Source of the DNA: Ignavibacteriota bacterium
GTDB taxonomy: Bacteria > Bacteroidota > Ignavibacteria > UBA10030 > SZUA-254
Direction of reading: 5' to 3'
DNA length: 64,000 nucleotides
NCBI GenBank assembly: GCA_016212665.1
Contig: JACREZ010000037.1
Coordinates: 62,001-126,000, forward strand
Shown: piece after piece, positions 22,379 to 35,138 of the stretch
Layout: the number at the start of each line of letters is the position of its first letter
Position numbering within the stretch: the first letter of the stretch is position 1
The notes under the pieces: generated by a model
What the model was told of the DNA's origin: nothing
Databases searched by the model: none
Seen by the model: the letters and a program-made list of their open reading frames with translations, nothing else
Program-made: the position numbers and the translations under genes

Positions 22379-22610
22379 GGGAAACAACACCTTCTGCACA
22401 GGGATGCTTCCCTGCTGTTCGGTCGTTTCATCCAGCTATCCTGTGGTGAACATCCCTCATCCTTCCGGGATGTTTCCCGTATCGAAGCGGGAAACAACCC
22501 GCTCTGTCCAGGGATGTATCCCCAACCACTGAGGGATATATCCCGAATCAGTAAGGGATGTCTCCCTGAACGCTGAGGGAGACATCCCCCTGCCTTCAGG
22601 GAGAGATAAA
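22379..22610. repeat. 22-bp tandem array with palindromic GGGATGTATCCC core
   Basis: Units begin exactly every 22 bp at 22379, 22401, 22423, 22445, 22467, 22489, 22511, 22533, 22555, 22577 and 22599. Most open with a 12-nt near-palindrome GGGATRTNTCCC (for example GGGATATATCCC at 22533) followed by a 10-nt variable stretch. The units starting 22379 and 22423 are degenerate, as is the last. Because 22 is not a multiple of 3 the array is unlikely to encode a repeat protein. It is not a CRISPR: the constant part is too short and the variable part is only 10 nt. Confidence 0.8.
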
Positions 22611-33623: not shown

Positions 33624-34247
33624 TTACGAAATCAACACTGTTACCGTTACTTCGTCTGACCAGAGCCCGACTTCCACATCATCTTTCAGGAAGCGTGCTT
33701 TGTAGGAACGAAGTTCCGGCACACCGGCGACAAGATTCTTCCGTTTATCTTCCATCGGCGACCGGTAATCCTCATCGAGTTTTGTGTATTCTGTTTCCGC
33801 TCCGCGTTTCGAGTACACGACAACCCCGTCTGACTTTTCTTTCAACCAATCCAGACGGGCACAATCAACCAACGTTGTCGCGAAAATTTTCGGCTTCGCA
33901 TTTTCAAGAGAACCCGCGCCCGGCGTCTCCGGCGCTACGATTCCCAAATTTTCTCCGATTGCTTCCGTATAGGAAGGATGACGCTTGAGAATACCAGCCA
34001 AATCCTGTACATGCTTTCGCGCAAGAGCAACTACTTCATCCTTGGTTTTCACTTTCGACTGTAAGGTCTTTTTGAGACTGTCAACTTCTGTCAGATTATT
34101 TTTTACGCTATCCCTGTCCGTTGTGAACTGGTCAACCTGCCCGCCGGAGAGTCCGAACAACGCTACATATTCTGCAAGTTTTGCAATAAAATTTTCCAAC
34201 CATTGTAAGAACAATGATTCGCTTCGAGGCAAAAATGTTGATGCCAT
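33624..34247 (-). CDS. conserved hypothetical protein with Fn3-like C-terminus
   Basis: A 207-residue soluble protein without signal peptide. The ATG at 34247 has AAAGGA about 8 bp upstream. The N-terminal 100 residues are predicted helical (MASTFLPRSESLFLQWLENF, then LGLSGGQVDQF and a Lys/Asp-rich helix). The C-terminal half (from about residue 115) looks like a small beta-sandwich, ending RSYKARFLKDDVEVGLWSDE, reminiscent of Fn3-type folds. I recall similar proteins from environmental genomes but no assigned function. A 42-bp tandem array lies in the 5' direction, between this gene and the next. Confidence 0.75.
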   Translation of the reverse strand: MASTFLPRSESLFLQWLENFIAKLAEYVALFGLSGGQVDQFTTDRDSVKNNLTEVDSLKKTLQSKVKTKDEVVALARKHVQDLAGILKRHPSYTEAIGENLGIVAPETPGAGSLENAKPKIFATTLVDCARLDWLKEKSDGVVVYSKRGAETEYTKLDEDYRSPMEDKRKNLVAGVPELRSYKARFLKDDVEVGLWSDEVTVTVLIS

Positions 34248-34374
34248 TTGCTTTATCCTTTATGTTATTGTTGTTTTAATATTTGAATGAAAATAATTTT
34301 ACTTTGTTGAAAACTGATTGCTGATTACTGGTTTCTGCATACTGGTTACCGGTTCCGCTCCTTCGACAACAGAT

Positions 34375-34920
34375 TCCAAATAACAGAAACGTGTTGCGAA
34401 CTTGTTGAAATAGTCTGCCCGATGGAGGAAACAAATTGCACGCGGGCGGAACCTTCCTGCCCGACGGCGGGAACAAGTTGCCCGTGGGCAGAACCTTCCT
34501 GCCCGACGGCGGGAACGAGTTGCCCGTGGGCAGAACCCTCCTGCCCGACGGCGGGAACGAGTTGCCCGTGGGCAGAACCCTCCTGCCCGACGGCAGGAAC
34601 GAGTTGCCCGTGGGCAGAACCCTCCTGCCCGATGGCGGAAACGAGTTGCCCGTGGGCAGAACCCTCCTGCCCGACGGCGGGAACGAGTTGCCCGTGGGCG
34701 GAACCTTCCTGCCCGACGGCGGGAACGAGTTGCCCGTGGGCAGAACCCTCCTGCCCGACGGCAGGAACGAGTTGCCCGTGGGCAGAACCCTCCTGCCCGA
34801 CGGCGGGAACGAGTTGCCCGTGGGCAGACCCCTCCTGCCCGACGGCGGGAACGAGTTGCCCGTGGGCAGAACCTTCCTGCCCGGTGGCGGGAACGAGTTG
34901 CCCGAAGAACAACCCTTCCG
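34375..34920. repeat. 42-bp (2 x 21) tandem array with palindromic cores
   Basis: Thirteen 42-bp periods. Eleven well-conserved units run exactly from 34459 to 34920. Each is a dimer of related 21-bp halves: GCCCGACGGCGGGAACGAGT(T) and GCCCGTGGGCAGAACCCTCC(T). Both halves contain a short palindrome (CCCG-ACGG-CGGG and GCCC-GT-GGGC). The two periods at 34375-34458 are progressively degenerate. The period is a multiple of 3, so frames are open on both strands (for example minus 34954-34346), but none has both a convincing start and a recognisable protein pattern. A plus-strand TTG at 34436 has GGAGGA upstream, created by a degenerate unit. I treat the array as DNA repeat with unproven coding. 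Confidence 0.85.
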
Positions 34921-35138
34921 TTCGCTTCAAAAATGCAGGTTTCCGGAAGGACATGAGAAATTACGCTGTTTTGGGCTATTCATAAAAGGGGAGAAAATCA
35001 AGTATTTTTCAACCTTCTCCCCCCTCAATCCTAAATAACTCAATTTGCCTTACGAAATAACCAATTAACCAATTAACCAATCAACCAATTAACAATGAGA
35101 ACCCCCGCCTTGCGGGATTATTATCAAACTGACTTGCG
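34921..35138. other. spacer with octamer repeats
   Basis: A gene-free stretch with four copies of AACCAATT/C (35059-35090) and a GC-rich hairpin CCCGCCTTGCGGG (35105-35117) that may end the transcript of the 35139-38045 gene. Nothing else is recognised. Confidence 0.5.

Follow-up and report, generated by a model that had tools for sequence, protein, structure and literature searches.

The locus analysed here raises the question of whether a tandem array and the gene that it precedes belong together and, if so, at what level the array acts. Both lie in the window, by which is meant the whole stretch of DNA analysed, 64,000 nucleotides in length, and the features concerned are the following.

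33624..34247, minus strand: gene of the 207-residue protein, with predicted helices at residues 10-31, 35-88 and 95-101 and a C-terminal FN3 domain at 112-207 (ORF, alignment, AlphaFold2)
34248..34372, minus strand: spacer from the start codon to the array (sequence)
34373..34414, no strand: decayed unit on the gene-facing edge of the array (19/42 match to the consensus)
34415..34918, no strand: array of 12 clean 42-bp units (Tandem Repeats Finder and unit-by-unit match)
34909..34934, minus strand: outer flank of the array, TTTTTGAAGCGAACGGAAGGGTTGT on the gene strand (flank comparison with L177:16765 and L075:5594)

Array and gene in the window

Tandem Repeats Finder places at 34415-34904 a repeat with a period of 42, 11.7 copies, 94% matches and a score of 833, which is by far the strongest tandem repeat of the window. 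Comparison in register confirms that each 42-mer consists of two related 21-mers, and the clean units agree with the consensus at 32-42 of 42 bases. A first reading of the locus, made from the sequence only, had counted thirteen 42-bp periods; this count and its coordinates are right if the decayed unit at 34373-34414 is included (12 clean units plus one), the 19/42 agreement of which equals the 99.9th percentile of the background (19). The units at the centre are almost identical, as had been seen, and are taken as showing recent expansion. The decay described toward 34375 is real but is not confined to that end, since both ends decay. The palindromes noted in the units are present, the best helix being GGGCAG-7-CTGCCC on the gene strand, and both strands of the array are open, in all six frames. 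The array lies on the 5′ side of the gene, at 167 bp from its ATG. The promoter and ribosome-binding region of the gene are presumably contained in 34248..34372, where a promoter scan revealed no clear site.

The unit type of this array is also found in the array of a paralogue (L064) and in two 21-bp arrays adjoining other genes (L075:5300-5594 and L177:16765-17081), the latter of which sits upstream of a long ORF. Three of these four arrays have the outer flank in common, and the copy at L075:5594 is more diverged than that at L177:16765. In an empty-site comparison, the matching contig of the sister genome G002 was found to end at the neighbour of the locus.

The window contains another array, at 22400-22600, with 22-bp palindromic repeats around a GGGATGTATCCC core in 3-5 copies; its neighbours are two long secreted-protein genes with T9SS-type tails. 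The sequence-only reading had suggested that the two arrays are members of one class. This does not hold: the 22-bp array (22510) has 3.2 copies and a period of 22, and it adjoins no helical/FN3 gene, so that it probably belongs to a different class.

Association of 21-bp arrays with the gene

The proposal that array and protein belong together as one unit has strong support. Of the full-length genes of three protein families (A2, which includes the 207-residue protein, A3 and A4), 70/89 have a 21-bp-period array upstream, compared with 2/508 control windows. Upstream regions of homologues and control windows, the latter drawn from the homologue loci and from the 64-kb window, were compared at a threshold of 25 by a maximal-segment score that uses lags P and 2P, and the pooled count was restricted to full-length genes with enough upstream DNA. 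By family, upstream arrays are present at 43/59 genes in A2, 14/15 in A3 and 13/15 in A4; two of the 89 genes, the paralogues L065 and L069, have the array on the downstream side, and every other period tested from 15 to 30 was seen at one gene at most. In an earlier homologue set, period 21 matched 41/63 homologues at threshold 25 and 2/508 controls, one of these two control matches being the downstream array of a homologue itself, and no other period from 15 to 30 matched more than two homologues. The Fisher p for the association is about 1e-70 when relatedness between loci is ignored; the loci share phylogenetic history, and MAGs are the source of many of them. The arrays lie 24-501 bp from the gene, with the gene downstream, and in most of the genes scored as having neither an upstream nor a downstream array the best lags are still multiples of 21.

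Array and gene constitute a two-part module, in which the array stands almost always in front of the gene, and the association extends from Ignavibacteria to at least one bacterium related to them: in G466, which belongs to a different class, upstream arrays are present at both A3 homologues. Families A3 and A4 were discovered via two arrays of the source genome, whereas their homologues elsewhere were found by protein sequence, and these homologues from other genomes again have arrays. The outcomes named beforehand as speaking against the pairing, namely homologues lacking a nearby array or arrays scattered without gene preference, did not occur. At L154 (about 1975-2100), a stretch of N interrupts the assembly exactly at the expected site of the upstream array, indicating that arrays probably break MAG assemblies and that 70/89 may be an undercount.

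The proteins beside the arrays

The 207-residue protein has no covering family in Pfam, PHROGs, PADLOC or NCBIfam, and no relatives were found in phage, plasmid and viral collections. An origin from phages, plasmids or viral contigs was accordingly rejected for want of matches. Its named relatives come from Ignavibacteria and Bacteroidota MAGs. A protein-sequence search found the family, including some distant members, in 25/391 genomes of the class. Besides the window gene, the source genome (3.9 Mb, 45 contigs) encodes nine or more long members of the family and three fragments. No conserved neighbour genes were seen around the family members checked. Residues A2, W16, K69, K88, W134, K136, R148 and R180, among others, are invariant in the family alignment. 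In the AlphaFold2 model (pLDDT 84.8, 22 sequences), residues 112-207 form an FN3 beta-sandwich and match FN3 structures with a VIA-align Z of about 11 and an rmsd of 2.1-2.8.

The array-linked proteins are stand-alone proteins of 200-245 residues, consisting of a unit of short helix, long helix and short helix followed by FN3 or by a second helical unit. A4 (205 residues) has helices and FN3, and A3 (244 residues) has a pair of helical units and a tail rich in K/R, which among the array-linked families is confined to A3 members. The models of A2 and A3 have the same order of short helix, 54-60-residue helix and short helix, which occurs twice in A3, and hhalign aligns A2, A3 and A4 in register but weakly (E 0.003, 0.011 and 0.016; probabilities 3-10%). 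Common ancestry of the helical unit in the three families is plausible. A2 proteins are acidic, with a pI of about 5.3 (as were most members checked), and contain no recognised DNA-binding motif; a Pfam search gave no replication-initiator or partition match for the array-linked protein. No significant match was obtained by Foldseek with the A3 model, and therefore no fold family can be named. Two loci, L264 and L265, encode proteins of 101-103 residues that correspond to the helical part of A4 alone, without FN3 and without an array.

Conservation of period and place

The 70 upstream arrays fall into 49 blastn clusters, with a GC content of 17-69% and a median length of 217 bp, and consist of about 3-23 units of 21 bp or a multiple thereof. 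Among the paralogues L086, L088 and L089 of G021, the spacers between array and gene can be aligned, whereas the arrays cannot. The 49 unrelated array groups and the aligned spacers beside non-aligning arrays indicate that period and place are conserved, and not the sequence. Almost every locus has a repeat sequence of its own, which changes far more rapidly than the gene does. No leader motif shared across loci was found outside one group of related arrays. Four f21 orthologues have a promoter-like TTTG-N21-TAAATTTG between array and ATG. A Bacteroidota-type promoter was rejected as a general feature, being found in 18% of cases as against 12% in shuffles and clear in the f21 orthologues only.

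The term palindrome satellites, under which the sequence-only reading had classed the array, is apt in part. Dyads are enriched, with a combined p of 1.6e-10 over 39 arrays and 1e-6 over 67 arrays, but they are individually significant in just 18/67 arrays, and the defining feature is thus the 21-bp period and not the palindrome. The direct repeats are phased by whole helical turns. One-base phase slips occur in the arrays (43, 85, 104, 83), and the array upstream of the gene at L284:2231-2400 has lags of 41/61/82/102, that is, a period of about 20.5 bp rather than 21. The slips and this 20.5-bp array fit helical phasing better than codons.

Peptide, RNA or DNA

Several explanations can be weighed against these data. 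First, the array may belong to an RNA module, in which its transcript binds the product of the neighbouring gene or neutralises it, by analogy with type III toxin-antitoxin systems. The layout is that of toxI-toxN, with a tandem repeat upstream of a gene of roughly 200 codons and repeats differing between loci, and it is shared with the ToxIN, CptIN and TenpIN systems, in which a small stand-alone gene is likewise immediately preceded by a tandem repeat of locus-specific sequence (PMC5086642). ToxI repeats, however, are 34-36 nt long, occur in 2.8-5.5 copies, are conserved within a toxin group and are followed by a terminator before the toxin (PMC5086642), whereas the present arrays have about 3-23 units of 21 bp, which are not conserved even between close paralogues such as L086, L088 and L089. 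The gene strand of the arrays has a slight surplus of purines and a folding excess, but the opposite strand shows an equal folding excess (z -1.37 and -1.48), and G.T equals A.C in stem mismatches (64 vs 68 over 67 arrays), so that no strand signature is seen. An RNA leader was also rejected on the absence of a G.U excess, as an early imbalance (GT 24, AC 45) disappeared with all 67 arrays. Moreover, stable structure is all but absent from many arrays, Rfam gave no match, and the f21 arrays end 24-50 bp from the ATG, which leaves little room for a terminator. Searches of Pfam, NCBIfam and PADLOC revealed no toxin of the ToxN, CptN or TenpN type, and the predicted fold of the protein, helices plus FN3, does not appear ToxN-like. 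The RNA module is considered unlikely.

Second, the array may be a hypermutable switch that does no more than set the transcription level of the gene by its length (copy number) and needs no binding protein of its own. The near-identical central units with their recent expansion, the upstream position in 70/72 cases and the frequent lack of common sequence between orthologous arrays are all in line with such a switch, but it does not by itself explain the fixed 21-bp period, the preference for one set of protein families or the two downstream arrays. It also seems improbable. In VNTRs and contingency loci, too, a gene is preceded by a homogenised tandem array, but VNTRs are not known to have a fixed period or a protein-family preference such as are observed here.

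Third, the arrays may be selfish or neutral satellites, produced by a cellular process with the genes merely lying where that process acts. The link is indeed looser when read from array to gene. In a 0.7-Mb sample of the source genome, the same score detected 13 arrays with a 21-bp period, and no other period gave more than three; there were about eleven non-coding arrays, five of which adjoin genes of the A2, A3 or A4 type and six other genes or none. The unit type and flank of the window array likewise occur in two arrays without such a gene. An association of 79% vs 0.4% in several genomes and two classes is nevertheless too strong to leave the genes as bystanders, except where the proteins themselves make the arrays, in which case a new system would again be at hand. 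Satellites of this kind are rather improbable. The longest array seen, of period 21 and 642 bp (L217:9959-10600), adjoins no helical/FN3 gene, and an AT-rich array of the same period (L213:14732-14913) lies 26 bp before the gene of a 117-residue protein of helix-turn-helix type.

Finally, a coded heptad-repeat peptide (21 bp being seven codons) is very improbable and was dismissed as a general explanation: although the window array is open in all six frames and on either strand the consensus units of all arrays contain fewer stops than chance predicts, also when dinucleotide-preserving shuffles serve as the reference, stops interrupt all three sense frames in 28/69 arrays and all six frames in 14/69, variation is not concentrated at wobble positions (excess 0.000, p 0.98), and one-base slips and a 41-bp period break the frame. 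Intrinsic DNA curvature, calculated from a wedge model, was rejected as well, since arrays were not consistently above column-permuted ones (means 0.139 vs 0.116). With coding, RNA and curvature unsupported, a role at the level of DNA remains.

Proposed protein assembly on phased DNA sites

The preferred reading, held tentatively, is that the array provides DNA-level sites two helical turns apart for the assembly of a protein, which may be the one encoded by the adjacent gene. The array would work at the level of DNA rather than through a message or a peptide. Because 21 bp corresponds to two helical turns, the site in each unit would lie on the same face of the duplex, whatever its sequence, and the dyads in many units would serve a dimer. 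The protein assembling along the phased array would most simply be the product of the adjacent gene, acting via its 54-60-residue helices, and once assembled it may control the promoter between array and gene or build a larger nucleoprotein structure. As each locus has its own site sequence, each paralogue could recognise its own array only.

Several observations stand against assembly on DNA. A2 proteins are acidic and have no recognised DNA-binding motif, significant dyads are found in only about a quarter of the arrays, the predicted curvature is not raised, the arrays of L065 and L069 are downstream, and about half of the sampled non-coding arrays adjoin other genes. In addition, the arrays outpace the protein in evolution, a pattern not easily reconciled with a specific protein-DNA pair.

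Comparison with known DNA repeats

Plasmid-origin iterons and tandem centromere repeats such as F sopC have a spacing of about two helical turns or multiples and lie near the gene of the presumed binding protein. The present arrays are likewise direct repeats of about two turns beside the gene of a presumed binder. Unlike iterons and sopC, however, they occur in many copies per chromosome that are unrelated in sequence, they accompany an acidic FN3 protein, and no replication or partition gene is recognised. REPs are dispersed palindromes of one common sequence linked to RAYT transposases. REP/BIME elements thus resemble the arrays as palindromic repeats tied to a protein family, whereas the arrays have only the period in common. 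No description of such a system was found in the open-access literature and the family libraries searched, which were not exhaustive. The nearly constant 21-bp unit in front of such genes points to a two-part module that is, to this extent, undescribed.

Implications

Conserved DNA elements are normally recognised through their sequence or their folded structure. Here, a length of 21 bp is kept at a fixed place beside genes of one kind, with hardly any constraint on sequence, and conservation of a period alone cannot be seen by ordinary homology searches. It is quite possible, if still short of probable, that the arrays and genes represent a widespread, undescribed chromosomal system, in which paralogous modules of a helical protein and a private array are conserved only in the two-turn unit. 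If so, each cell would hold dozens of distinct and fast-evolving protein-DNA addresses, each on one face of the helix. If the arrays are a by-product, the proteins would be candidate makers of arrays, and thus a new route to bacterial satellite DNA. If the pairing is functional, it would be a new kind of bacterial module, present in many paralogous copies per chromosome, and would raise the question of what reads a period.
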